Part shown: positions 4,736-23,827 of the stretch, piece after piece | How the letters are laid out: each line of letters begins with the position of its first letter | Position numbering within the stretch: the stretch's first letter is position 1 | Virus record (IMG/VR): IMGVR_UViG_3300020185_000265 | Location: 1-23,827 of that record | Direction: 5' to 3' (one strand) | DNA length: 23,827 nucleotides | Source of the DNA: a virus | Notes under the pieces: generated by a model | Seen by the model: the letters and a program-made list of their open reading frames with translations, nothing else | Told to the model about the DNA's origin: nothing | The model's database searches: none | Translations under genes and position numbers: made by a program

Positions 4736-7639
4736 TTATTCTATAGCACCCTTATAATTGTATGTATTATCGGGTGTATTTAAGTCATTGTCATCGTCCA
4801 CACTAGTTACAGTTAATGAATCTATTTTTGTCTTCCACCCATTATTATTAATAGTATGGGTTATTCCTTTACAAATAAATGATAAAGTTTTTGGATATGA
4901 TGGTGGTAGTATTTCTGTTGTAATGTAAAATTTTTCATAAATTCTTAAACCTGAAAAACCATCCATATCTAAATTCATATTAAAAGGAATAAAACCTTGA
5001 GAATTTGGGGGATTTTTGGGAGAATTGGGTTTGGTATCGGGTTTAAATGCAAGCTCTTTGTCCTCAATAGTTGTAATATATCTATTTAAATTAGCATTAA
5101 GAGATTGAGCTGTTTCTTGAACATCACCATCGGGCATTCTTCCAGATTGATAAAATGAAGGGATTAATGCTGATGGTTTATTTAAAGATACAATACTTTT
5201 TGAAAAAATTTCAAAGGGTTTGGATTGTGATGATTTTTTAGAATTAATACCAGCTTTACTTAATTTACTAGGAGTAACACTATCGTTTAGCCCTGTATTC
5301 CACCTGGAGAATGCACCGGCATCAGCAATATCATTAGATTTTTGAGATTGAGCTCCAATTGAAATCATAGTAGCAAACTTATTAGATAGAGTTGTAGAAA
5401 TACCTACACTATGAATAAAGGAAGCATTTTGTTGGAGAGGTTTCCATCCGTTAATATTAAATAATGTTCTTTGTATTGGTGGGACTCGTGTACCTTTTGC
5501 TACTAAAGGATCTAATGGGGTATCATCTCTAAATACTACAGTATTTAAGTCATGGTCGTAGGTTACTGAAAATTTATTAATGCTACCTAATGCCGTGTTT
5601 ATACCATAAAGGAGTTGTTCTAAAAATTTTAATAGTGGGACAGCGTTATTAGATGTGGTTTGTTTTAATACTCTACCTATATAGTGAAGATTAACAGGTA
5701 TGTTTAACATATTAGCTACATAGTCACTTTCGGGGACTTTGAAATTACAACCTTCTAAAACATCACTGTAATAAGAAACAAAATCTCCAATAGTGATTTT
5801 TTCTGTTTTTATTGTTTTACCGTCTGCTCCTTTTTCTTCTTTTTTATCTACTTTTGCAGTTGGGAATTTGAAGGGGATAAGGCAAACATTAGGATCTGAT
5901 GAAAATTGGGTAGGTTGGGTATACATAAAATTTTCCCCATCTAAATCGAAGCTTAAGATTTTTTCATTAAAATCACTAGTTAAATTTTTTGAATTTAAAA
6001 AATCATCTTTTTCTTTTTGGGTTGTTAATTTAGCAAGCTCTTTTTTAACTACTTCAGATTCTGCGGTATCTAATCCTCCATTATAAATTAAAAGTTCTTC
6101 TTCAATAAATTTTAATAATCGTTCTAATTTAATATATTGGTATGGGGCATTTCTTGCAGCTTTAAGCGTTCCACCTATAATCTCCCCTGTATGATCCTGA
6201 ACTTCTCGTAGGGTTGAAGGTTGGATCATTAATAAATCTCCATAATCATCTATTTCTCCTAAAGTATTGAAAGACTTAATTGTTTTTTCAGAACTAGAAG
6301 ATGTAACTATTTCTTTACTATTTGAGTTAAAGTTTTGTTTTAAATAGTTATAATTTTTATATAGAAAAGCATTTAGTTTAGATTTATCTTTACTAGCTAT
6401 TAATACTTGAGGTCCTGGGTCTTCTGGGGTTAAAGTATTTGGTAGGGGTTTTAGAGTAGCTCTTTTAAATGTGGGTAGATTGCCAAATGTACTTTTTGCT
6501 CTCTCATAATTATAACCCGTAGTTTTACCCGTTAAATTTGCTATAAATGAAGGATCTTTATGGTTAGGTTCATCCCAAAATTCATAAAATTTTATTCTAT
6601 TATCATAGTGGACTGTGTAATTGAAGGGTTTATTGTTTCTATCTATAAGATTAAAAGTATAACCATTTTCACCTTCATAATCACTACGCTTACTACTAGT
6701 ACTCCTACTACTATTAGAAATTGTTTTAGGTTTGGATTCAGTAGCAGCTTCAACTCTATCAATTGTTAAAGATTCAATTATATCTCCAGTAGATATAGCT
6801 TTTACTTCTATACTATATGAACCATCAGAATTTAAATTCCAAACAAAGTTAGTAATTTTTCCATAAAACCCATCATAGTTACCTTGGGATCCATTTACTT
6901 TACCCGCATCCTCATCTATAGTAGTCCCATCACCACTTTCCCCATTACCTCTTTCTTTTTTAATAGCTGCAAGTAGTCTTTGTTGGCTTCCCTTTTTATT
7001 ACCATCTAAAAAGTCATTCATCATTAAAAATGGCAAAGTATTAAAATTAGCTCTAGTGTATATTGGAGCTTCTGGAGTGCCTTTAAAATAATTGGTGTGA
7101 CCCCATTCTAAAAGAATAGTATAACCTGGGCGCATAAACAAAGCATCTAAAGCAGCAAATTGCTTAATATTATATGCTTTCATTTTAAAAGAAGCTTTTC
7201 TTAAAGAGCCCCTATTATATGTTGTAATCGATAGATCTTCAATACCCGGCATAGGTACAAGACCTCTTGATGTTTCATATTCAAAACCGTATGCTGAATT
7301 GTTTGGCTGTTGGCCTGCATACACCCCTGAATTTAGATTGGTAGTTTGGTTATAAGTTGTATTACCATCTTTATCGGTATCTTGCCCTAAACCAATAGTA
7401 CCATTAAATAAAACATATTCTTGGGCTAACTTTCCACCCCCAAAATTTTGTCTCCCCGTTAATTCTTCAGCAGTTTTAGCATCTACTTGAACTGCTGAAA
7501 TAGCCCTAATCCAAGCAGTTTTATTTGTCTGCCAAGCCAACATCTCAGGGGTTTTATTTTTAAGACCTAATAACTGTTGTCTAAGATTAACTTGATTCTT
7601 AGCCCATTGGTCAGGATTATTGCCTATAATGTTTGCCAT
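4736..7639 (-). CDS. large virion structural protein, probably baseplate
   Basis: A 967-residue protein rich in Asn, Ser and Thr, without transmembrane helices or an enzymatic motif I can identify. The best-conserved-looking part is residues 125-185, including RGLVPMPGIEDLSITTYNRG and YTILLEWGHTNYF. This segment resembles large baseplate or tail structural proteins of uncultured T4-like phages, from memory. Two low-complexity Ser/Lys stretches (about 300-325 and 440-455) look like linkers. The C-terminal ~100 residues resume a compact beta-rich pattern (GLRIYEKFYITTEILPPSYP). It follows the gp53-like gene by 3 bases, so it should be cotranslated with it. Size and position between wedge-like and end-of-tail genes suggest a baseplate hub or wedge role. 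The specific T4 counterpart is unknown. Confidence 0.75.
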   Translation of the reverse strand: MANIIGNNPDQWAKNQVNLRQQLLGLKNKTPEMLAWQTNKTAWIRAISAVQVDAKTAEELTGRQNFGGGKLAQEYVLFNGTIGLGQDTDKDGNTTYNQTTNLNSGVYAGQQPNNSAYGFEYETSRGLVPMPGIEDLSITTYNRGSLRKASFKMKAYNIKQFAALDALFMRPGYTILLEWGHTNYFKGTPEAPIYTRANFNTLPFLMMNDFLDGNKKGSQQRLLAAIKKERGNGESGDGTTIDEDAGKVNGSQGNYDGFYGKITNFVWNLNSDGSYSIEVKAISTGDIIESLTIDRVEAATESKPKTISNSSRSTSSKRSDYEGENGYTFNLIDRNNKPFNYTVHYDNRIKFYEFWDEPNHKDPSFIANLTGKTTGYNYERAKSTFGNLPTFKRATLKPLPNTLTPEDPGPQVLIASKDKSKLNAFLYKNYNYLKQNFNSNSKEIVTSSSSEKTIKSFNTLGEIDDYGDLLMIQPSTLREVQDHTGEIIGGTLKAARNAPYQYIKLERLLKFIEEELLIYNGGLDTAESEVVKKELAKLTTQKEKDDFLNSKNLTSDFNEKILSFDLDGENFMYTQPTQFSSDPNVCLIPFKFPTAKVDKKEEKGADGKTIKTEKITIGDFVSYYSDVLEGCNFKVPESDYVANMLNIPVNLHYIGRVLKQTTSNNAVPLLKFLEQLLYGINTALGSINKFSVTYDHDLNTVVFRDDTPLDPLVAKGTRVPPIQRTLFNINGWKPLQQNASFIHSVGISTTLSNKFATMISIGAQSQKSNDIADAGAFSRWNTGLNDSVTPSKLSKAGINSKKSSQSKPFEIFSKSIVSLNKPSALIPSFYQSGRMPDGDVQETAQSLNANLNRYITTIEDKELAFKPDTKPNSPKNPPNSQGFIPFNMNLDMDGFSGLRIYEKFYITTEILPPSYPKTLSFICKGITHTINNNGWKTKIDSLTVTSVDDDNDLNTPDNTYNYKGAIE

Positions 7640-7642
7640 ATG

Positions 7643-7945
7643 TTAAAACCTATTTATGTTTAAATAATTTCTTTGAATTGATGATATATTAGTAGGTATT
7701 CTTATTTGAGAACCTACGGGTGGATAAATTGATGTTGGGGGAATAGAAGGGTTGGCTGTGGCTATTATCCACCATAAACCTGTATTACCATAATATTGGT
7801 TAGCTAGCAAGTCATATCTATCTCTATCATCAGTTATAACATATATGTCAGTATCCGATAGTGGGATTGTAGGGTAAAAGTTAGTTGAATAGTAACGATT
7901 GCCTTTATCAGTGTTTAATACTTGTATGTCTTGATATCTATTCAT
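7643..7945 (-). CDS. gp53/LysM-like baseplate wedge protein
   Basis: A 100-residue protein with a LysM-like core: DRYDLLANQYYGNTGLWWII at about 42-61, then IPPTSIYPPVGSQIRIP near 68-84. This is the layout of T4 gp53-type baseplate wedge proteins and tail protein X relatives: a residue stretch for a repeated unit, W-W/I, then P-x-G-x-x-I-x-I-P. In contractile tails these join wedges or anchor the baseplate to the tube. The ATG overlaps the stop of the upstream gene by one base (TAATG), a sign of translational coupling. The next gene starts 3 bases after its stop. The family call rests on motif shape and context. A generic LysM domain protein is the alternative. Confidence 0.75.
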   Translation of the reverse strand: MNRYQDIQVLNTDKGNRYYSTNFYPTIPLSDTDIYVITDDRDRYDLLANQYYGNTGLWWIIATANPSIPPTSIYPPVGSQIRIPTNISSIQRNYLNINRF

Positions 7946-9378
7946 TATGTAGGTGGTAGTTTTGGTCCCTTAAATCTATTAAAATTTTCAGGGTCTGAAG
8001 GGCTAATTTCCCAACCCATATTCCAACTATATGTATCCTCTATTTTACGATCTTTTGGATCAATTGTTGTAGTTTGAGAATTCATCTTGTCGTATCCTAT
8101 AAATTTAGAACCTTTTTGAGGTACAAAATTATGAATTGGAGTAAATGAAAACCCACTAACTTTAAGCACATGGGGTAATTGTGCTATTTCGACATCACCA
8201 AATAAATCTCCATCTTCACCTAAAGGATTACCATTCATCTTTTTAGCAATTTCCCAACTAGATTGTTCAAACCCTCCAATTGATATTCCCTTAAGAACAC
8301 CTGGGACATCCGTTAAATAATCACCTATAGTTAAATACACTAAATTTCCTCTCATAAAACCTTCATCACTATAATCAGGGGCACATACTGATGCCAAATA
8401 ATTAAGTTTTTCATATAGTGGTTTTTGCTCTTGTCTTGATTGGACAGCAACTGTAAAACCCATACTAATTTCTCTACCAAAACCTCCGTAAGTTTGAAAT
8501 TGTTCACCCCTTCCAACATATTGTACACCACTCCATTGAGCACTAAATGAATCACTAAATGAATCTATGAAAGCTCTAAATGTAATCCAAGTTCTTTCTG
8601 AAGGATTATCATTATTTACTACTGAAATTCGGAATTTGATAAAATCACTATTTTCATCCTTTTCATAGACTGTAGCAGAATTATATAGAGGCTTCATAGC
8701 CATTCTATCTGCAGTATCTGCTATTGGCTCACCCGGAAGACTTTTATCATAAACAACGTTATAAAGTTCTTCACCTGTTTTAGATACTCCTCTATTTCTT
8801 CTAACACGTGTGCCTGTGGGGACTCCTAAAACTGTACCTTTTAATAAATTGTTAGTACCAATAGCTACTTTACCTATACCATATACATCACTTTCACCTG
8901 GTTGGAGTTTGGTTGATGATCTTAAATCTGTAGGGCCCGGAAAGGGTTGTGAGAAAAAAGATTTAATATCGGGATTTATGAATGCAGGTGTGTGTCCAAA
9001 TCCTACTCCTGTAGCTACAGCTTGTAGAGGAACTGCAAATGGATTCCATATTTGAAATGGATCTGCTAGTAAACCTTGGGCTACTTGTTTAGCATTAAAT
9101 GATGCCCCCACATTGGTTTCAGTATAAAGTTTAAGCAGCCTTTCTACATCTTCTAAAGCAGCACCGGGTCTTAATAGACCTCCTCTAATCCCAAAATCAT
9201 TACTAGATGTAAATCCTTGTATTCCTTGATCTTCATTTTCATTTGAAGGGATTTGAGGATCTACACCATTAGGAAAGGCAGCAAAAGCCCCTCGAGCATC
9301 TGCTGATGAAGCATTTGCAGGGCGATCGTTGCCAAATCTTAAGGATTTGAGATTGGTTTTTAAGTCTATTAAGGGCAT
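7945..9378 (-). CDS. baseplate / tail-tube initiator-like structural protein
   Basis: A 477-residue protein. The N-terminal ~230 residues are Gly/Pro/Ala-rich with little recognisable pattern. The C-terminal half (about 246-425) looks like a tail-tube fold domain. It contains WITFRAFIDSFSDSFSAQW (264-282), then VGRGEQFQTYGGFGREISMG (288-307) and QKPLYEKLNYLAS (318-330). That sequence style resembles the gp48/gp54 tube-initiator proteins of T4-like marine phages, which cap the baseplate and nucleate the tube. The assignment is by eye and moderate only. Its position between the 88-residue protein and the gp53-like wedge fits a baseplate protein. The start at 9378 is preceded by ATAAAAAATAATAT; the gap to the upstream stop is 10 bases. 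Confidence 0.7.
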   Translation of the reverse strand: MPLIDLKTNLKSLRFGNDRPANASSADARGAFAAFPNGVDPQIPSNENEDQGIQGFTSSNDFGIRGGLLRPGAALEDVERLLKLYTETNVGASFNAKQVAQGLLADPFQIWNPFAVPLQAVATGVGFGHTPAFINPDIKSFFSQPFPGPTDLRSSTKLQPGESDVYGIGKVAIGTNNLLKGTVLGVPTGTRVRRNRGVSKTGEELYNVVYDKSLPGEPIADTADRMAMKPLYNSATVYEKDENSDFIKFRISVVNNDNPSERTWITFRAFIDSFSDSFSAQWSGVQYVGRGEQFQTYGGFGREISMGFTVAVQSRQEQKPLYEKLNYLASVCAPDYSDEGFMRGNLVYLTIGDYLTDVPGVLKGISIGGFEQSSWEIAKKMNGNPLGEDGDLFGDVEIAQLPHVLKVSGFSFTPIHNFVPQKGSKFIGYDKMNSQTTTIDPKDRKIEDTYSWNMGWEISPSDPENFNRFKGPKLPPT

Positions 9379-14343: not shown

Positions 14344-16062
14344 TTATGCTGGGAAAGTTGCTCCAGTTGGTAAAACATTGAAATCTAGGTAAATAAATTC
14401 TGCTGTTTTGGTTGGTTGTAAGTAAATTTGACCAATTAATTGGTTTCTATCAATTACATCCGCAGTATTATTTGAAGAATCCATAATTACTTTAAAAGCA
14501 TACAAACCTTGTCTTTGTTGTACTGATTCTAAATATGGGTTAACTTGACTTAAAAATGCATTTCTAGTAGCAATAGTATTTTGTTCAAATACTAAATTAT
14601 CTGCAACTTGTGAAATGTAAGATTTAAGTTGAATTAATAATCTTCTAACATTTACTCTATCTAAAGCGCTTGCTTTTGTTTGTAATGTTTTTTGTCCAAA
14701 TACTACTGTACCGGATCCTGGGAATGAAGCTATTGGATTTACTTTACCTTGGTATAATACATCTCTGTTTGATTGTGAGAATTTTCTTTCAGGACGTACT
14801 ACTGTAGCTAATCCACCTCTATTCAAACCTGCAGGTGCAAACCATGCTTCTCCTACTCTATCATTATAAGCATAAACTCCTGGAATCATTGTTGAAGCTG
14901 GAACCCATACTAATTCTCCTGTTTCTGGACTTGTCGTTTGTAACCATGGGGCATAAACTGCAGCATAACTGGAATTGTATGATTGAGCTTCGGCTGTCAT
15001 GGAACTAATTGTAGCACCATATGTTGAAGCATCTACAATTGCGATTGCATCTCCTCTTTCTTGTACCATATTAATTAATTTGGTAGTTGTAGCAGGTGCT
15101 GTTTCAATCATAATACCAGGTACTGTAATTGAGTTAAATATATATTCATCTTGATTTGATAGTAAATCAATTGAAGTAGTATAATTAGTATTATTTAAAC
15201 CTTGAATATTCGCAGAAGTGGTAATTTTTTCATTAAATGCAGCTCCGGATGTTTCAAAATAAACTTGACCTGTTGCGCCTTCAAATGAACCACTTGCTAC
15301 TGCTGGTAGTGATGATGTATATTCTGATTTAAAATCTCCATTATTATCAAAATATTGGGAAGTTTTAGCATTTACTGCTGAAACATATATATATCTTGAT
15401 CTGTTAGGATAAGTACCATTATCTTGAACGTATGGTGTTGTATCACTAGTGTTAACTGTTTTGTAACTATCACCTATTACTTTTGAAATATAATTTGGTG
15501 CTGTTGGGTCTAATGATAAGTTAGTAAATGATTCTAATACTGTTTTTTGGTCTGTAGTATCACTACCTCGTCTAACTAATAATGTAAACGTACCTGAAGA
15601 TGTGCTAAATTGAGGAATTTCCCATCTTAAATTATCATTTGAACCTGAAACTAAAGCACCATTTACTTCTGAACCTGAACTATTCATAATAGCACCTTCA
15701 CCAAATGTTTTTAATGTAAATGAAGTTGCTACTGCTACCCCACTACCTGAAATATTTGTTGAAGTTGCACTTGTAAATGATCCAGATACAACTCTAGTTA
15801 CTAATAGTGTAGTTCCACCATTATTAAAGTAGTTGTAAGCAGAGTTTGAAGTTAAAAATTCTTGTTGTAAACTTGCACTCATAAAAGTTGTTCCAAATGC
15901 CTGAGTATACTCACTATATGAGGTTACTAAAGTTGGAATTCCAACTGGGCCTTTAACTGTTGGGCCTATGATTGCAGCGCCTGCTTGAATTGGTTGAGCG
16001 GTTATTGCTGAAAGATCGTTCTCTCTAGCTAATACACCTGGTGATAATAATGTTTCTGCCAT
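14344..16062 (-). CDS. gp18: contractile tail sheath protein (T4 gp18-like)
   Basis: A 572-residue tail sheath subunit. The N-terminus ETLLSPGVLARENDLSAI and the following GAAIIGPTVKGPVGIPTLV are the classic sheath signature. The C-terminal domain has RRLLIQLKSYISQV (near 470) and ends with ADVIDRNQLIGQIYLQPTKT and EFIYLDFNV, the conserved sheath core that interlocks neighbouring subunits. The middle (about 90-330) is Ser/Thr-rich and variable, like the protruding domains of gp18. The length is close to T4 gp18 (about 660) with a smaller variable part. It is followed by the tube gene, the canonical order. Two copies of the late-promoter motif lie 12 and 28 bases upstream, fitting one of the most abundant virion proteins. 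Confidence 0.93.
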   Translation of the reverse strand: MAETLLSPGVLARENDLSAITAQPIQAGAAIIGPTVKGPVGIPTLVTSYSEYTQAFGTTFMSASLQQEFLTSNSAYNYFNNGGTTLLVTRVVSGSFTSATSTNISGSGVAVATSFTLKTFGEGAIMNSSGSEVNGALVSGSNDNLRWEIPQFSTSSGTFTLLVRRGSDTTDQKTVLESFTNLSLDPTAPNYISKVIGDSYKTVNTSDTTPYVQDNGTYPNRSRYIYVSAVNAKTSQYFDNNGDFKSEYTSSLPAVASGSFEGATGQVYFETSGAAFNEKITTSANIQGLNNTNYTTSIDLLSNQDEYIFNSITVPGIMIETAPATTTKLINMVQERGDAIAIVDASTYGATISSMTAEAQSYNSSYAAVYAPWLQTTSPETGELVWVPASTMIPGVYAYNDRVGEAWFAPAGLNRGGLATVVRPERKFSQSNRDVLYQGKVNPIASFPGSGTVVFGQKTLQTKASALDRVNVRRLLIQLKSYISQVADNLVFEQNTIATRNAFLSQVNPYLESVQQRQGLYAFKVIMDSSNNTADVIDRNQLIGQIYLQPTKTAEFIYLDFNVLPTGATFPA

Positions 16063-16174: not shown

Positions 16175-17371
16175 TTAAAAATGTAACACATTTTGGATTG
16201 ATTTTAAAACTTGAGAGGGTTTTATAGATTTAGTACATTCAAAATGTAGTAATGTATCTTTATGATCAGGACACCATTCCCAATCTCCAGGATTTAACCA
16301 CTCACGATTGAAACATCCAGTACAATTACCTTCAGGTGTTGATACTCTTTCACAGTCTTTAAATTCAGTATAAGATTCACTAAAGCCTGAAATTAATACT
16401 ACTGGGGTATTTATAGCCCAAGCTAACCAAGATAACCCACTACCTACACCTATAAAGGCTTCAGCATGTTTAATTTGGTTCATTCTAGTTTCAATTGGAA
16501 AGTCACCCGTTTCATTAATTACATTTAATAAAGTACCCCCTAGTTTTGAATCATGCCACTCATCATTTAAGGGTTCTTGAGTAATCATCATTACTTTATA
16601 ACCTTTTACATTTAAAGTATCAATTATTTTCTGCCAGCCCCCGGGATGGTTCCAATACTTAGCATGTGCCGAAGCATGTGGAGCAATTACAACATATTTT
16701 TCTTCTATTGGGCGACCTGTATCTTGAAAATCTAAAATTGGTTTTACTTCTTTATAATCTAAACCCAAAATTTTGGTTGATGCTTCTTGTAAGGGGATTG
16801 GTTTAAAATCACAAGGTATTCTTTGTGAGTTAAATGTTTTATCATCATTGTAAAACCACCCAACACCATACATAGCATATAAATCTGGAACTGATTCACC
16901 AGGGGTAGAAAATTCTATTTCTGGGTATTTTGTTTCAAACCATTTATTTTTAAATGTAGAAACTATAACATGGCAGTTCCATTTTTTTCTAAATTCTTCA
17001 ACATACGGAAACCATGCTAATGTGTCACCAATAGCATTTGAATCTAAATGAATGTAAACTCTCTTACCTTCAGGATTATATTGATGTTCAAATACTAACT
17101 CATTAGTAGATAATTCATAAATTTTTATTTCCCAACAAACAAAGTATTTTACATTAGTTCTAGTCCACATATTATTACTAATAACAGTATCATGGACAAT
17201 TTCATTAGTATCTAAATTCTTTATTGTAACTTTATATTGTTTATCTTGTTTACCTAAGATTTCTACAAATGCCCCTTCAATAAAATTAATATTAAAAGTA
17301 TTAGAAGGTATCTTAATGGGTAAGTTAAGGTTTTTGATGGAGTTGTATGTATTAATTAATTCTTGTTTCAT
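16175..17371 (-). CDS. BAHT-family (TibC-like) protein O-glycosyltransferase
   Basis: A 398-residue GT-B enzyme resembling bacterial autotransporter heptosyltransferases (TibC, Aah). These transfer ADP-heptose to Ser of repetitive surface proteins in the cytoplasm. It has an N-terminal beta domain (about 1-105), then SNAIGDTLAWFPYVEEF (111-127), VVIAPHASAHAKYWNHPGGW (227-246) and IGVGSGLSWLAWAINTPVVL (307-326). Its C-terminal finger has four Cys at 350, 353, 367 and 379 within NCTGCF, WEWCPDHK and FECTKSI. This is the arrangement of the iron-binding finger of TibC. The ATG overlaps the stop of the GT4-like gene (ATGA), so the two are translationally coupled. The sugar donor is unknown; ADP-heptose is only the family precedent. 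The likely acceptor is the Ser/Thr-rich collagen-like protein of this operon, or a host protein. Confidence 0.85.
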   Translation of the reverse strand: MKQELINTYNSIKNLNLPIKIPSNTFNINFIEGAFVEILGKQDKQYKVTIKNLDTNEIVHDTVISNNMWTRTNVKYFVCWEIKIYELSTNELVFEHQYNPEGKRVYIHLDSNAIGDTLAWFPYVEEFRKKWNCHVIVSTFKNKWFETKYPEIEFSTPGESVPDLYAMYGVGWFYNDDKTFNSQRIPCDFKPIPLQEASTKILGLDYKEVKPILDFQDTGRPIEEKYVVIAPHASAHAKYWNHPGGWQKIIDTLNVKGYKVMMITQEPLNDEWHDSKLGGTLLNVINETGDFPIETRMNQIKHAEAFIGVGSGLSWLAWAINTPVVLISGFSESYTEFKDCERVSTPEGNCTGCFNREWLNPGDWEWCPDHKDTLLHFECTKSIKPSQVLKSIQNVLHF

Positions 17372-18321
17372 AACACTTGATTATATATTTTAAGTAATTC
17401 TATTGTTCTATTTTCCCAACTAAAATCAATACCAGTTTTAGTTGAGTCTTTTATGTATTTACCCCAATTATTTAAAATATCATCTAAACCCCTTTCCATA
17501 TCAAATATATTACGTGGAGATCTCCACATTCCAAAGAAATCAGTTTCCATTTCAATCCAACCAATAATAGGTAAACCACACGCTGCTGCTTCTAATAATG
17601 TAAGATTAGGATGTCCAGCTTCCAACTCTGAAGGATGGAGAAATATATCGTGGTCTAAATAAACTTGCCTTAAATCAGCATTACTAGGTTCCCAAATAAA
17701 TTTTAATTTTGGATAATTTAAAACCCATAAATTTTCATTTATCCAATTTTGATTATTTTTAGGACCTACAATAGTAAGTGGTAAGTTACGTAACATAGCT
17801 AAACCAACACCATATGAAAATCCCTTCCTATCGTGTCCATTTTTACCACCCATACCATTATTAGCAACCATTAATAATTTTGGTTCTTTAGGTACTAATT
17901 TAGGAGTACTTTCAGGATAAAAACCATTAGTATTAACCCCATGTGCAAAATATATGCACTTTGGGTGATTAAAATAATCTACTAACCATTTCGCGGGCAT
18001 TAATGAAATTAATGAACCTTCAATTGCTTCTAAATTTTCTTTAAATGTTGATGATTCTTTACCATAGTATTTTACATGGTGATCATGCAATTGGTAGATA
18101 TATGGAATGCCTCTATTTTTTAAATCTATTGCTAAATTAGCTACATGACAGTGAACTATATCAAACTCACCAGGTTTAATATGACCCGCCAGTTTATGAG
18201 TAGACTCATGACCTAATTTTCTTTGGTTTTCTTCAAACTCCCATATAATTTTTTCTATTGCTCCCCAATTTTTAGGAGGTATATCTAAACCACATGCCGG
18301 GTCAATGTGAACTATTTTCAT
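17368..18321 (-). CDS. GT4-like glycosyltransferase (GT-B fold)
   Basis: A 317-residue retaining-type GT-B enzyme. The N-terminal domain starts with MKIVHIDPACGLDIPPKNWG, the glycine-rich acceptor-side loop, then DIVHCHVANLAIDL (54-67) and GIPYIYQLHDHH (71-82). The C-terminal donor domain has FAHGVNTNGFYP (125-136) and FLHPSELEAGHPNLTLLEA (227-245). The last of these is the nucleotide-sugar phosphate-binding block of GT4-type enzymes, with spacing slightly different from the textbook E-x7-E. It is shorter than typical GT4 proteins (350-400). It overlaps both neighbours by four bases and so forms part of one coupled set of three transferases. Substrate and donor are not deducible. It may extend the glycan begun by the BAHT-like enzyme. 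Confidence 0.85.
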   Translation of the reverse strand: MKIVHIDPACGLDIPPKNWGAIEKIIWEFEENQRKLGHESTHKLAGHIKPGEFDIVHCHVANLAIDLKNRGIPYIYQLHDHHVKYYGKESSTFKENLEAIEGSLISLMPAKWLVDYFNHPKCIYFAHGVNTNGFYPESTPKLVPKEPKLLMVANNGMGGKNGHDRKGFSYGVGLAMLRNLPLTIVGPKNNQNWINENLWVLNYPKLKFIWEPSNADLRQVYLDHDIFLHPSELEAGHPNLTLLEAAACGLPIIGWIEMETDFFGMWRSPRNIFDMERGLDDILNNWGKYIKDSTKTGIDFSWENRTIELLKIYNQVL

Positions 18322-21041
18322 AATGTTGCGTATATTTCAGGGCTATTATTATCCATTCCTTTAAATTCTTGTTCTATAATACTAAAACCTGGTAGGTGTT
18401 TAGTATAAATTTTTTCTGCGGTACCTACTTTTAATTGAGCCACATTACACACCCACATATCAAAAGCATCCCAAGGAGTATTATTGATTTTATTCTGAAT
18501 ATAATTAATTTTATTATTATTAATTAAATATGATTGAGCTGGAATAAATGGTGTTATATCTGTGTAAAGATCTTCAATTTTAGGTCCATTTAAGTTACGA
18601 TTATTAAATGGGTTTCCAAATCCAATAATATCTTGATTATTTTCTTTTGCTAACCTACTAAAACGATCTAATGATTGTTTTAATTCACTAAACGGAGAAT
18701 CTACAATTACATCACCTTCAAAAATTAAGATATAATCATAATCCTTATTATCTTCAGCTAATAGTGCATCTGTATGGGCTTTATAACAACCATAATGTCC
18801 TGGGGCTAATTTATAATGTCCGGGTTTGTCTTGAACATCATCTGGTCTATTGCAATTATCTTTTGGTGGTAGTTCTGTCCAGATTTTATTTATGCGTTGT
18901 TCATATTTAATACCTGTTAATTGGCAAAATTCTTTTACATTTTCGGAAGAACGGATTTCTTTTTCATTTGTATCCGGTTCTGTAACTAAATGCATTAGTT
19001 TAATTTTAGGTTTTATTTCATATTGGGATCTATCCCCAAACCATTCAAATAAACCATTTTTAAATATTTGGTTATTTCTATAATCATCATCAACTATTAC
19101 TGTTTTAGAATCTAATTGAACATTGGTAGCTAAATCATAAGTATCCCAAGTAACTTTAAATATATCTCCTTCAGTAAATTTTACAATATCATATACGTGA
19201 AATTTGCTAGTGATTTGAAATTCTGCGGTATTTGTAATTACCCCATTTTTTTCTAAAGTGTATTTTAATAAACGGCTATCATTACTATTTGAAATTTGTA
19301 CAAATGGAGTAAAGTGGTATGGGATATCACTTGGTAGGATTGTAAAATATTCTATACGTGAATAATCCTTATGGGTAAATGTTTCACCACATTTAGATTG
19401 AAATTTTTCTCTTTCTTCCCAGTAAACATTTGATTCATTTTTAAATCCATGATACATAAGATTTTCTAAACCATTAGATTCAGCTCCCCACTTAGACATT
19501 AACTCATCATACTGTTGGGCATTGTCAATTTTAGGTTTTTGTAAAAAAAATTCAGGACGAATACCTAAAAACCAAGTTGTTATTTGTTTACCCTCTAATG
19601 CTTGATCTTCTCCAAAAAATGCATCTTTAGTATTAAGGATAGAACTAATTTTATTTACATAAGATTCATCTTTTAAGATGTAGTCATAATTAAGAAAATA
19701 TACCTTTTCAATACCTAAACCCTCAGCTAAAGCACACCCATTATAATAATTTGTATAACAAGTAGGACCATGATATACATCATTATCTTCACCTGTTAAA
19801 TTAATGTGAGCTTTCATCTCATTTGTAGACATCCATGAATTTGTATAAAAGGTATGTTTAGTTAAAATATTATGATTATCATTAATTGAGTAATCTGCTA
19901 ATTTATCTAATTCTTCTGGTATTGGTATGTGGGATGTTAGGATAACTTTACGCCCTGTAGCTTTAACAGCTTTAATACACTCTATAGTTGTATCAATTAC
20001 AGCTTTAGTATTAGGGTAGGTAGAAATGATAAATGCTTCCTCTTTAGGATCAATGTTTAAAGGTTTTTCATATTTAAAATCTGATAAATCTAAAACTGAA
20101 GAGATTATATCCTTGTTTTGATTTTTATCTTCGGTATTTAAATAATCTACACTATCAAATGTATCAAAATAATCTAAATATACTGGAAGATTATAAATGA
20201 GTAGGTTCATATTCCATGAAATAGCTTCACGAATTACTAGAGGCATTGTTTCTTTATCCGTGTTAGTTCCACGAGAAGTAAATAGAAATAAGTCCATCGC
20301 CTTATAAAAGTTATCCACATCACTACGTTCATTCCACCAAGTTACATTGGTAGGTTTGTCAGCCATTAATGGCTCCCAATAATGTCTAAAATTATCTGCT
20401 TGATTACCAACACTGTGAAATTGAACATCAGGAAGCATTTTAGCGTATTCAAAAAACTCTGCTTGATTTTTTCTAGGTGTAAATAACCCAACGTGTAAAA
20501 CATGTTTTTTATTAGGATCTAAACCTAAAGCACTTAATGCTTCTTCTCTATTTGGGCGTTCTTTATACTCAATTGGATAATAAATTACCTCTTGAGGTAC
20601 GTTAATATTTTTATATTGTTTTTTCTGCCATTCTGATACAAAAATAAACTTATCTGGTAAGAATGTTTTATTATTAGTATCCATTGATGAATCGTGGGAT
20701 GTTTCTATTAAAGAATAAGATCTATCTTGATTATATAATCTTTTAGCAATCTCAAAATCCATAAAATATTCAGGAATTTCTTCTAGATGAATTATGTCGG
20801 GTTGGATTTGATCGATAATATCGAAAAGTTCAGTTTTATCTTCACCTAAAATAAAAAATCGTTCAGGGGGGATCATATTTTGTAATCGATCCTTTTGAAC
20901 AACTAGAACACCACCCGTTAAATTATCCCATTCAATTAAATATACTTCAATTTCATCTTTTATTAATTCTACTTTTTTAGTAAGATATTGGGGTAGCCCT
21001 CCTGTAGATAAGTGAGGGGCAATGCAAAGCAATTTTTTCAT
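18318..21041 (-). CDS. three-module glycosyltransferase (GT4-like, middle module, GT25-like)
   Basis: A 907-residue multidomain enzyme. Module 1 (about 1-325) is GT4-like: CIAPHLSTGGLPQYLTKKVE (6-25), LHVGLFTPRKNQ (182-193) and DLFLFTSRGTNTDKETMPLV (250-269). Module 2 (about 333-660) starts EAFIISTYPNTKAVIDTTIE and has VILTSHIPIPEEL and FLNYDYILKDE. This is a transferase-like domain seen in phage polyproteins, followed by a beta-rich segment; its function is uncertain. Module 3 (about 680-907) is GT25-like: LAPGHYGCYKAHTDALL (745-761), then YDYILIFEGDVIV (768-780) with the acidic metal site, and PFIPAQSYLI. GT25 enzymes act on lipooligosaccharide or hydroxylysine of collagen. The four-base overlap with the next gene gives coupling. 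It follows the collagen-like gene after 64 bases without a clear terminator. Confidence 0.82.
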   Translation of the reverse strand: MKKLLCIAPHLSTGGLPQYLTKKVELIKDEIEVYLIEWDNLTGGVLVVQKDRLQNMIPPERFFILGEDKTELFDIIDQIQPDIIHLEEIPEYFMDFEIAKRLYNQDRSYSLIETSHDSSMDTNNKTFLPDKFIFVSEWQKKQYKNINVPQEVIYYPIEYKERPNREEALSALGLDPNKKHVLHVGLFTPRKNQAEFFEYAKMLPDVQFHSVGNQADNFRHYWEPLMADKPTNVTWWNERSDVDNFYKAMDLFLFTSRGTNTDKETMPLVIREAISWNMNLLIYNLPVYLDYFDTFDSVDYLNTEDKNQNKDIISSVLDLSDFKYEKPLNIDPKEEAFIISTYPNTKAVIDTTIECIKAVKATGRKVILTSHIPIPEELDKLADYSINDNHNILTKHTFYTNSWMSTNEMKAHINLTGEDNDVYHGPTCYTNYYNGCALAEGLGIEKVYFLNYDYILKDESYVNKISSILNTKDAFFGEDQALEGKQITTWFLGIRPEFFLQKPKIDNAQQYDELMSKWGAESNGLENLMYHGFKNESNVYWEEREKFQSKCGETFTHKDYSRIEYFTILPSDIPYHFTPFVQISNSNDSRLLKYTLEKNGVITNTAEFQITSKFHVYDIVKFTEGDIFKVTWDTYDLATNVQLDSKTVIVDDDYRNNQIFKNGLFEWFGDRSQYEIKPKIKLMHLVTEPDTNEKEIRSSENVKEFCQLTGIKYEQRINKIWTELPPKDNCNRPDDVQDKPGHYKLAPGHYGCYKAHTDALLAEDNKDYDYILIFEGDVIVDSPFSELKQSLDRFSRLAKENNQDIIGFGNPFNNRNLNGPKIEDLYTDITPFIPAQSYLINNNKINYIQNKINNTPWDAFDMWVCNVAQLKVGTAEKIYTKHLPGFSIIEQEFKGMDNNSPEIYATL

Positions 21042-21105
21042 AAACTAATTTTAACAATATAACATATTATAATAACTAATATTTACATATCCAAATTATA
21101 ACCTA

Positions 21106-22596
21106 TTACTGAGTCCAAGCAGGCATCCAATAATCTGTACCCCCAATATTAACTACTACCCAACCGGCAGCAAATAATCCAGTATTATCTGGAACTTCTG
21201 GATCTAAAAACCCATTAGTTGCAGGACTATTGAATGCAGGGTTAAACGTATGAGTGGTACCGCCTCCGGCACCACTTGTACCTGAAGTACCTACTACCCC
21301 TGCAGCACCACTAGTACCTGAGGTACCTACTACCCCGGCAGCACCACTTGTACCTGAAGTACCTGGGGAACCTGAGCCTGAAGTACCATTTGAGCCTTGA
21401 ATTGAAGATCCTGCAGTATTAGATGCCCCTGAAGTACCTGCAGTACCCGTAGTACCTGAAGTATTTGAACCACCTGAATTACCACCTATACCTGAAGTAC
21501 CTGTTGAACCTGCTGTACCAGAGATACCGGATGTACCTGCTATACCTGAAGTACCTGCTATACCTGAAGTACCTGATAAACCTGAAGTACCTGATTCTCC
21601 TGAAGTACCATTTGCACCATTTGAACCTGAGGATCCAGTCGAACCTGAAGTGCCTGATGTTTTACTTAAACCCGAAGCTCCTGCTATACCTGTTGTTCCT
21701 GTTGAACCTGAGGTTCCTGAAAGGCCTGAAGAGCCTGTTGAACCCGCTGTACCTGATATTCCGGCTGTACCTGATTCTCCTGAAGTACCATTTGCACCAT
21801 TTGAACCTGAAGATCCAGTTGAGCCTGAAGTACCTGAAGTCTTACTTGAGCCTGCTGCTCCTGCAATACCTGAAGTACCTGTTGAACCGCTTGTACCAGT
21901 TGTACCTGAAGTACCTGATGTTCCGGCTGTACCTGATTCTCCTGAAGTGCCTGAAGCGCCTACTGTACCTGAAGTACCTGTTGAACCTGAAGTTCCTGAA
22001 GTCTTACTTGAGCCTGAGGTACCTGCAATACCTGAAGTACCTGTTGTTCCTCCTGAACCTGCAGTTCCTGAAGTACCTGCTGTACCTGAAGTACCATGTG
22101 AACCTCCTGAAGTACCGGATGTACCTGATCTACCACTTGTACCATCAGCACCTACTGTGCCTGAAGTTCCAGTTGAACCACTTGTACCAGCTGTACCTGA
22201 AGTACCTGATGTCCCTGTTGTACCTGAAGTGTTTGATATACCTCCGGCACCGGCCGATCCTGAAGATCCTGAAGATGTAGAATTCCCAGTTGAACCTGAA
22301 GTACCTGCTGCCCCCGTTGAACCTGAAGTTTTGCTTAAACCTGCAGTTCCTGCAGTTCCTGATGTACCTGATGTTACGCTTCCTCCAGAAGAACCTGATG
22401 TTCCATTTGAACCTCCACCACCACCACTACCACCAATAACAGAAACCACACGGCCATCTTTATTAGTAGCTAAAACTCTATCAGTTCCTGCATTATCTAT
22501 AGAACCTGTAGGGACACTTAGTAAGAACAAATCTTGTTTGAAAACTGATTGTCCTGGTGTATCTCGTCTACTGGAAAATTTTCTATTTTCAGCCAT
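21106..22596 (-). CDS. collagen-like Ser/Thr-rich repeat protein, probable virion fibre
   Basis: A 496-residue protein. The head (1-55) is basic then hydrophobic (VFKQDLFLLSVPTGSIDN). A poly-Gly hinge follows. Residues about 63-444 are almost pure G-x-y triplets with x/y being T, S or A (GTS, GTA, GST, GIA) and a single proline, at 411. A C-terminal cap (445-496) contains NPAFNSPATNGFLDPEVP and WVVVNIGGTDYWMPAWTQ. Regular G-x-y suggests a collagen-type triple helix. Without proline it would need other stabilisation, and O-glycosylation of Thr/Ser is the known solution in some collagens and in spore-coat BclA. It is the first gene before three glycosyltransferases. A tail or head fibre is likely. 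The start at 22596 follows a terminator and a motif variant. Confidence 0.85.
   Translation of the reverse strand: MAENRKFSSRRDTPGQSVFKQDLFLLSVPTGSIDNAGTDRVLATNKDGRVVSVIGGSGGGGGSNGTSGSSGGSVTSGTSGTAGTAGLSKTSGSTGAAGTSGSTGNSTSSGSSGSAGAGGISNTSGTTGTSGTSGTAGTSGSTGTSGTVGADGTSGRSGTSGTSGGSHGTSGTAGTSGTAGSGGTTGTSGIAGTSGSSKTSGTSGSTGTSGTVGASGTSGESGTAGTSGTSGTTGTSGSTGTSGIAGAAGSSKTSGTSGSTGSSGSNGANGTSGESGTAGISGTAGSTGSSGLSGTSGSTGTTGIAGASGLSKTSGTSGSTGSSGSNGANGTSGESGTSGLSGTSGIAGTSGIAGTSGISGTAGSTGTSGIGGNSGGSNTSGTTGTAGTSGASNTAGSSIQGSNGTSGSGSPGTSGTSGAAGVVGTSGTSGAAGVVGTSGTSGAGGGTTHTFNPAFNSPATNGFLDPEVPDNTGLFAAGWVVVNIGGTDYWMPAWTQ
21265..22410 (-). repeat. collagen-like triplet repeat region with higher-order repeats
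   Basis: About 1.1 kb of 9-base-periodic and 3-codon-periodic DNA encodes G-x-y triplets. Nested in it are three longer modules (22011-21472) of 54, 60 and 66 residues. Each begins with (S/L)SKTSGTSGSTG and passes through GTSGESGT. Near the end are two exact 12-residue units, GTSGTSGAAGVV (21363-21292). Module length differs only by whole triplets. The antisense frames are long and open only because the repeat lacks stops. Confidence 0.9.
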
Positions 22597-22623
22597 TTAA
22601 GGTTTGTTCGTTTATCTTGTGAT

Positions 22624-22632: not shown

Positions 22633-22642
22633 GAAGATAAGA

Positions 22643-22658
22643 AGGGGCATTAGCCCCT
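22643..22658 (-). terminator. hairpin terminator upstream of collagen-like operon
   Basis: A 6-bp GC-rich stem (AGGGGC/GCCCCT) with a 4-base loop is followed on the minus strand by TCTTATCTTC. It lies 25 bases after the stop of the 47-residue gene. It separates the fibre-end genes from the collagen-like/glycosyltransferase unit. The U-tract is broken, so termination may be partial. Confidence 0.6.
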
Positions 22659-22683
22659 CCAAATTTTAATTTTAACTCAAATA

Positions 22684-22843: not shown

Positions 22844-23086
22844 CTATGTTATGTCTGGTTGGGTAACATAAAAGTCTGTTGGGGCACCTAATATGACTCT
22901 AATGCTATCAGTAAACATAATATACCAAAATACGGGTGTATCTAAATCTGCTTCGATATAATTAACCCAGTAAAGAGTTATGTCTTCTGGTGTTTTTGGA
23001 AGACCGTAATGGTCAGCGCATTGTTTTCGGGCTGCTATCGCATCTGCCTCTGTGGTGTATTTGTATCCGTTTACTTGTTCTATCAT
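22844..23086 (-). CDS. hypothetical protein following the fibre gene
   Basis: An 80-residue protein with no named domain: MIEQVNGYKYTTEADAIAAR, then QCADHYGLP, TLYWVNYIEADLD, VFWYIMFTDSIRVILG and a short tail. I have the impression that similar small proteins accompany fibre genes in Bacteroidota phages, but this is memory and not a search. Its ATG overlaps the stop of the upstream fibre-like gene (ATGA), so the two are translationally coupled. It could be a fibre-assembly factor or a minor virion part. It has no signal peptide or transmembrane helix. Confidence 0.75.
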   Translation of the reverse strand: MIEQVNGYKYTTEADAIAARKQCADHYGLPKTPEDITLYWVNYIEADLDTPVFWYIMFTDSIRVILGAPTDFYVTQPDIT

Positions 23087-23827
23087 GGTGTATAAATTGA
23101 GTAATGCGCGTTAATGTTATTTCTGATTCCCACTTGATTTGAAGACTCATCAGTTGAATAAATAACAAGTTCTTGCATTTTACCTAGCCAACCCCTGCCT
23201 GTAATAGCCCTATCTTTTGAAATACTATCAGCCCTACCAGTTGAAGAAGTGTGAATCATAGATAGAAGAGTTTGATTTAATGCTCTTGTTGTGTTTTCCA
23301 GGTCTGTAGTAACGCCATTTATCTTGTTATCGCCTCCAGTTACTTGTGGGTTGCCTGCTGAATACAACCATTGTTGCGATGGACCGGCATGATAATCGAC
23401 ATATGTCGTTGAACCCAACATAAATTGCTGCCAAGTTATGCCGTTTATTTCTGGGTTTAAAGTATAGAAAACTGACCTAATATTACTAAGCGCTGTAGTC
23501 ATATTAAAATGCAACAATCCAGATGAATCGAATTGAATTGATGGTTTTCCGTTATCGGTTATAACCACACCAGCAGAAACTAGTTTAGGCTGTAAATTTG
23601 CAGTAGTTTGTGTTGCATTGTTTCCATTTCCAGATTGATCATACCAAATCGTTACAAATCCATCGTTGGTTAAACCTGTACCTGTAAAAGCTAATAATGT
23701 GCCATCAGTAATTTGCGCTGCTGTAAAATCTTGCTCGGCATTATCGCTACTTCTACGGATTTTTACAACATTAGTTGTTGTAGATTTTAAATTTCTCAGA
23801 GAATAACCAGCAGAAGCACCTGTATAT
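23083..23827 (-). CDS. tail fibre / lectin-like protein, C-terminal part, cut by right edge
   Basis: 247 residues are visible. The frame is open to the right edge, so the true start lies outside; the GTG at 23568 is internal. The visible part has YSLRNLKSTTTNVVKIRRSS, then DNAEQDFTAAQITDGTLLAF, then FVTIWYDQSGNGNNATQTTA. This pattern is shared with the arabinofuranosidase-B/concanavalin-like (LamG-type) domains of phage fibres. It continues with GKPSIQFDSSGLLHFN and a C-terminal GRGWLGKMQELVIYSTDESS, the end of such a beta-sandwich. I see no clear catalytic site, so carbohydrate binding is more likely than hydrolysis. A host-receptor adhesin or tail fibre is inferred. Confidence 0.7.
   Translation of the reverse strand, partial: YTGASAGYSLRNLKSTTTNVVKIRRSSDNAEQDFTAAQITDGTLLAFTGTGLTNDGFVTIWYDQSGNGNNATQTTANLQPKLVSAGVVITDNGKPSIQFDSSGLLHFNMTTALSNIRSVFYTLNPEINGITWQQFMLGSTTYVDYHAGPSQQWLYSAGNPQVTGGDNKINGVTTDLENTTRALNQTLLSMIHTSSTGRADSISKDRAITGRGWLGKMQELVIYSTDESSNQVGIRNNINAHYSIYTP

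Follow-up and report, generated by a model that had tools for sequence, protein, structure and literature searches.

A proline-poor collagen-like phage fibre and its neighbouring BAHT-family glycosyltransferase cassette

For a phage fibre gene that is followed by several glycosyltransferase (GT) genes, the question arises which molecule these enzymes modify. We analyzed this for a 23,827-nucleotide stretch of viral DNA (positions 1 to 23,827 of IMG/VR record IMGVR_UViG_3300020185_000265; referred to as the window), which is a piece of a marine or freshwater T4-like phage genome. It encodes a 496-amino-acid (aa) collagen-like fibre and, adjoining it, three GTs of 907, 317 and 398 aa, the last of which belongs to the BAHT (TibC/Aah-like) protein O-heptosyltransferase family. 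An earlier note on this DNA had described the four genes as a self-contained operon for decoration of the fibre. We infer, at a probability of roughly 0.6, that the cassette is dedicated to glycosylation of the phage's own fibre, i.e., to virion decoration. The individual pieces are known, whereas the combination of BAHT and phage collagen is new; a literature search, with most subscription journals outside its reach, found no paper linking the two.

The fibre and its three glycosyltransferases

The fibre is matched by the Pfam Collagen model PF01391 with 122.6 bits (cut-off 27.2) and has glycine at every third residue of a long tract. Proline accounts for about 0.4% of this Gly-X-Y tract and serine plus threonine for 46%, in agreement with the proline-poor G-T-S/G-T-A protein of the earlier note. 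A conserved N-terminal head precedes the Gly-Thr-Ser (GTS) or Gly-Thr-Ala tract, and a conserved C-terminal end follows it (...GWVVVNIGGTDYWMPAW); between these ends, the length of the tract varies among relatives. The 496-aa open reading frame (ORF) is a real gene, because the differences between its conserved termini and those of most relatives fall chiefly on third codon positions. A 316-aa ORF of proline/glutamate/valine repeats on the plus strand (21650-22600 of the window) is an antisense shadow of the GTS repeat and was rejected as a gene.

The 398-aa enzyme was assigned to the NCBIfam model TIGR04414 (autotransporter O-heptosyltransferase Aah/TibC) with 322.4 bits over residues 27-395 (cut-off 200). 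Models of lipopolysaccharide (LPS) heptosyltransferases scored far below their cut-offs. The only solved relatives found were the TibC structures 4rb4 and 4rap (E 1.4e-55 for 4rb4), for which the catalytic, donor-site and iron-finger residues have been named (PMC4358343). In the alignment with 4rb4, D116 corresponds to the catalytic base Asp-110, and S234, K238, R296 and W315 correspond to Thr-226, Lys-230, Arg-286 and Trp-305 of the donor site, the serine being a conservative change. The cysteines C350, C353, C367 and C379 align with the iron-finger cysteines 339, 342, 358 and 370 and are invariant across 12 aligned sequences, including the divergent BAHT of a 636-kb phage. Judged by its sequence, the enzyme is a true member of the BAHT/TibC family, which bears out the claimed signature of enzymes that O-glycosylate serine in repetitive surface proteins. 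It is not part of an autotransporter system: no autotransporter gene was found in the cassette, and the collagen-like fibre stands in its place.

The 907-aa enzyme is composed of a GT4 module (residues ~1-330), a GT-A module (335-556), a beta domain (~560-650) and a GT25-like module (670-907). The GT25-like module, also claimed earlier, falls short by sequence (PF01755, 19.1 bits, cut-off 24) but has some support at the fold level, although with a low template modelling (TM) score. A fold search of the PDB with the whole AlphaFold model (predicted local distance difference test score 79.9) gave WaaG and human COLGALT1 as top matches. The C-terminal half retrieved COLGALT1 and LH3 first, with a best E of 2.4e-9 but a TM score of ~0.2 and 8-10% identity, and tandem GT-A domains could inflate this match. 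Because of these low values, the likeness of the model to COLGALT1/LH3 is a common layout of tandem GT-A folds and no proof of kinship with collagen transferases. Among relatives the GT25 module is mobile; it is absent in some and fused to BAHT in loci L074 and L081. A comparison of the GT25 module with lysine in the GTS tracts gave p 0.012, but over few lineages, and was set aside. Homology of the beta domain (residues 553-668) to the N-terminal barrel of BAHT was unsupported (hhalign probability 9%). The 317-aa enzyme belongs to the GT4 family (Table 1).

Co-occurrence of BAHT and GTS collagen

For comparison, 80 of 192 BAHT-coding viral stretches were kept, and the sheath clade was sampled with 63 distinct tail sheath loci, each with at least 7 kb upstream. 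An initial count revealed 23 loci with both BAHT and a GTS tract, 7 with BAHT only, 1 with GTS only and 32 with neither. When whole records were checked, GTS tracts were found elsewhere in the record for L076, L066, L138 and L171. L225 was dismissed as a GTS-free exception, since its contig starts partway through a fibre, in the C-terminal half, and this fibre resembles the one of L074, in which the tract is GTS. L146, the apparent BAHT-free GTS case, was also rejected: its tract is Gly-Leu/Ile-Ser, with 0 (GTS)3 matches in the record. None of the 39 BAHT-negative records contained a (GTS)3 match. L052 was unscored in this recount, in which BAHT and GTS were concordant in 60 of 61 loci. As these loci share ancestry, raw Fisher values for them are unreliable on their own. 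The Gly-Leu-Ser/Gly-Ile-Ser fibre of L146 (6347-9682) adjoins the sheath gene and lacks most threonine as well as BAHT.

In a second, unbiased approach, viral contigs were scanned with a codon-degenerate (GTS)3 pattern, and BAHT was sought in 50 records among the matches listed. It was present in 18 of these, and in 15 of the 19 that are at least 60 kb long. The corresponding numbers were 1 of 40 (1/15) for Gly-Pro-Gln collagen records and 2 of 50 (0/10) for sheath relatives. Fisher tests of the GTS records against the comparison sets gave 3e-5 to 9e-5. The sole Gly-Pro-Gln record with BAHT contains GTS sequence too, with 38 matches. Among the neighbourhoods fetched, roughly half have a GTS gene no more than about 9 kb away from BAHT, with varying orientations and fusions. 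Within records, this proximity reached P values of 0.0002 to 0.14, depending on the number of GTS genes per genome.

In the cultured Microcystis phage Mel-JY01, the GTS fibre is followed by a 1227-aa GT4...BAHT fusion. BAHT and GTS collagen are also combined in the 735-kb phage LR756501.1 (the record of L084), which contains 965 (Gly-Thr-Ser)3 codon-pattern matches and in which a GTS gene adjoins the GT pair; the first of the matches listed cluster near 103.5-106 kb. For the complete Flavobacterium phage immuto, neither a BAHT match in the phage-collection record nor a GTS match was obtained. Since BAHT accompanies the GTS fibre in many unrelated phages, phages with both probably glycosylate their own fibres. 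The conserved linkage of GTS repeat proteins with BAHT-like genes, which the earlier note had proposed to look for, holds strongly. The counter-example it had named, transferases without any Ser/Thr-rich repeat protein, was mostly not encountered, as five of the seven apparent exceptions carry GTS tracts; phage LR756504, described below, does fit it.

Substrate of the cassette

GTs beside phage tail fibres are usually interpreted as LPS modifiers, e.g., in pelagimyophages (PMC7029224), and LPS enzymes are found among the members of GT9, GT4 and GT25. The transferases might accordingly modify host LPS or surface polysaccharide, for example excluding competing phages, with the fibre region as a host-interaction island. 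However, the GT9 enzyme of the window belongs to the protein-acting BAHT family, far above the cut-off of that model and far below those of the LPS heptosyltransferases. No membrane segment was predicted in the fibre or the cassette enzymes, all of which appear soluble, and no flippase or polymerase was found in the cassette. In addition, an association with GTS but not with Gly-Pro-Gln collagen is not predicted by LPS modification, and we regard this explanation as unlikely.

A different virion protein, most likely the abutting tail sheath, was also considered as substrate. BAHT is located directly upstream of the sheath gene or one gene off in nearly all loci of the clade, and glycosylation of mycobacteriophage virion proteins has been reported (Freeman et al. 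2023 via PMC12894461). Against this, the Ser/Thr content of the sheath shows no clear difference by BAHT status (20.2% versus 19.7%, p 0.06), and Mel-JY01, the 735-kb phage and many others have BAHT next to the GTS gene, away from the sheath. Modification of the sheath is thus distinctly improbable.

Several observations weigh against a dedicated action on the fibre. The sheath tree offers only four supported independent contrasts; even with agreement of all four in most pairings, p stays at 0.125, which formally leaves room for common descent as the reason within the sheath clade. This small number would suit mere inheritance, in which one lineage carried both and fibre and enzymes are functionally unrelated. 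Nevertheless, inheritance is very improbable as the full explanation: the two traits, BAHT and GTS, changed 8 and 9 times over the tree and disagree once, and their juxtaposition recurs in unrelated genomes with differing orientations and fusions. Furthermore, the core GTs persist next to proline-rich and YadA-like fibres, and adjacency alone therefore leaves the substrate unfixed. LR756504 (636 kb) has BAHT without any GTS tract. Conversely, 4 of the 19 large GTS records among the matches listed are without BAHT, most of them without a recognisable GT beside the fibre; in one BAHT-free large record, L529, other GTs and a sugar epimerase surround the GTS fibre. The known substrates of TibC are beta-helices, while the partner here is collagen-like. 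Moreover, the Phe-Val tip of the hydrophobic thumb of TibC, a beta-hairpin of this dodecameric enzyme, is not evident in the alignment of the 398-aa enzyme.

If the fibre is the substrate, a proline-free collagen-like tail fibre would be made in which the X and Y positions are mostly threonine and serine. The BAHT-family enzyme would transfer the first sugar onto the Ser/Thr hydroxyls of the fibre, presumably in the cytoplasm before assembly, as neither enzymes nor fibre have a membrane segment. By family, this sugar would be a heptose from the host's ADP-heptose, which is the donor in TibC. The 317-aa GT4 and the 907-aa GT4/GT-A/GT25 enzyme would presumably act afterwards and extend or vary the glycan, which in relatives may be capped by FkbM methyltransferases, sulfotransferases or extra GTs. 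The purpose would probably be stiffness or hydration of the fibre without hydroxyproline, together with surface masking. For bacterial collagens, stabilisation via hydration by polar and by glycosylated side chains has been proposed (PMC8968730).

Candidates for phage-encoded ADP-heptose synthesis were rejected: the genes upstream of the GTs of relatives encode a GT2-methyltransferase, DUF6445, a 2-oxoglutarate (2OG) oxygenase and a sulfotransferase, and the 'cytidylyltransferase' of Mel-JY01 is a marginal Pfam match only. Synthesis of the donor sugar is not encoded in the window, so "self-contained" was too strong a term, while the linkage of GTS and BAHT stands.

The proposed system resembles TibC/Aah (TIGR04414) in the full-length family match, the catalytic aspartate, the donor-site residues, the four-cysteine iron finger and the position of the enzyme gene next to one for a Ser-rich, repetitive surface protein. 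It differs in the partner (phage collagen-like fibre versus autotransporter beta-helix), in the thumb tip, which is not evidently kept, and in that some phages have BAHT fused with further GT modules. Glycosylation of viral collagen is known from mimivirus (PMC9614988). Its L230 lysyl hydroxylase/glycosyltransferase likewise represents a virus encoding collagen and its glycosylating enzymes, including a GT25-type module. Here, in contrast, a phage of bacteria is concerned, the proposed acceptor is Ser/Thr instead of hydroxylysine, and the main enzyme is GT9/BAHT. Mycobacteriophages are reported to carry sugar on their own virion proteins (Freeman et al. 2023 via PMC12894461). Among prokaryotic collagen-like proteins, glycosylation has been reported for Bacillus BclA (PMC8968730), which belongs to the spore surface and not to a virion. 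In a public library, the name 'Aah/TibC' is already in use for at least one protein of an uncultured phage.

Were own-fibre glycosylation confirmed, the protein O-heptosyltransferases familiar from bacterial adhesins would gain a role in phage virion maturation, with collagen as substrate, and would point to a possible route to stability for proline-free prokaryotic collagens. Many GT genes beside phage tail fibres, now mostly annotated as LPS modifiers, would need rereading. Both parts occur in at least one cultured phage, Mel-JY01, which makes the idea directly testable.

Proline-rich fibres and genomic context

Within the sheath clade, every locus with a collagen tract of 9-29% proline also has a PKHD-like 2OG oxygenase (PF13640). 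This oxygenase, a solved relative of which is PiuC, is often accompanied by DUF6445, a GT2-methyltransferase and a GT core. PKHD-type 2OG-Fe(II) oxygenases, often with DUF6445, were observed beside proline-rich fibres in L036 (2571-5046), L076, L077, L171 and L102/L108/L109. The pairs L050/L076, L167/L036 and L166/L171 are close tree neighbours that differ in fibre proline and oxygenase. In each of these three pairs, the swap to a proline-rich fibre was accompanied by a PKHD-type hydroxylase (contrasts 3 to 0, underpowered). Outside the sheath locus, the link was found in 4 of 82 versus 1 of 90 unbiased short chunks, which is weak alone. Counter-cases are L512/L261, with an oxygenase beside a tract of 1.4% proline, and L241, with oxygenases but no collagen in view. 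Judging from these gene neighbourhoods, prolyl hydroxylation of the phage's own proline-rich fibre is a candidate function. It is possible, though somewhat doubtful, that aquatic phages have a dedicated and exchangeable system of collagen maturation, in which proline-free GTS fibres are both stiffened and shielded by BAHT-initiated O-glycans, their proline-rich sisters add prolyl-hydroxylase-like enzymes, and fibre chemistry and enzyme are swapped together.

Table 1. Features of the cassette and its surroundings in the window
Feature	Position	Strand	Evidence
Collagen-like fibre, 496 aa	21106..22596	-	PF01391 122.6 bits; PHROG tail-fibre families; codon-position test
Multidomain glycosyltransferase, 907 aa	18318..21041	-	PF00534 4.2e-11; PF01755 1.2e-3; AlphaFold and fold search
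GT4-family glycosyltransferase, 317 aa	17368..18321	-	PF00534 2.7e-9; 71% mean column identity, 20 relatives
BAHT (TibC/Aah-like) protein O-heptosyltransferase family member, 398 aa	16175..17371	-	TIGR04414 322 bits; TibC 4rb4 E 1.4e-55
Terminator-like hairpin, immediately before the fibre gene	22641..22660	-	Consensus match only
Tail sheath gene, conserved; next gene downstream of the cassette	14344..16062	-	phrog_23 1.7e-77
Virion structural protein fragment (phrog_10356), precedes the fibre; window ends within	23083-23826	-	

As the earlier note had read from the letters, the four genes share one strand. This is the minus strand, with the order fibre, 907-aa, 317-aa and 398-aa GT; the sheath gene follows, and tail genes adjoin. 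The GT genes are indeed joined by 4-base ATGA overlaps (18318-18321 and 17368-17371), and the 64-bp gap between the fibre and the first GT gene has no terminator-like site, as claimed. The closest strong hairpin precedes the fibre gene, which suggests that fibre and GTs form one transcription unit. The tail sheath shares 54.7% identity with its counterpart in Flavobacterium phage immuto, and the order sheath, tube, hub and tape measure is common to both. A near-identity search of the phage collection found no matching entry.

Where the flanks of the relatives suffice, the cassette has the order fibre, GT4-GT-A, GT4s, BAHT and sheath; some contain insertions of FkbM methyltransferases, additional GTs or sulfotransferases. 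The same cassette, with a BAHT identity of 74%, was detected on JABDKL010000107.1 (L525), a 17-kb contig in a Winogradskyella metagenome-assembled genome that is itself a phage fragment. A flavobacterial host is therefore plausible for the window phage; the presence of L525 in this assembly reflects either binning contamination or a hint to the host. In L066 (1-4293), a 1430-aa fibre of GGGxNTASG repeats, similar to YadA heads, replaces the adjacent collagen. Its cassette also contains genes for a sulfotransferase and for another GT9-like protein, and sulfated glycans are possible. In L081, a 491-aa ORF (7515-8990, minus strand) is located on the opposite strand between the sheath and tube genes.

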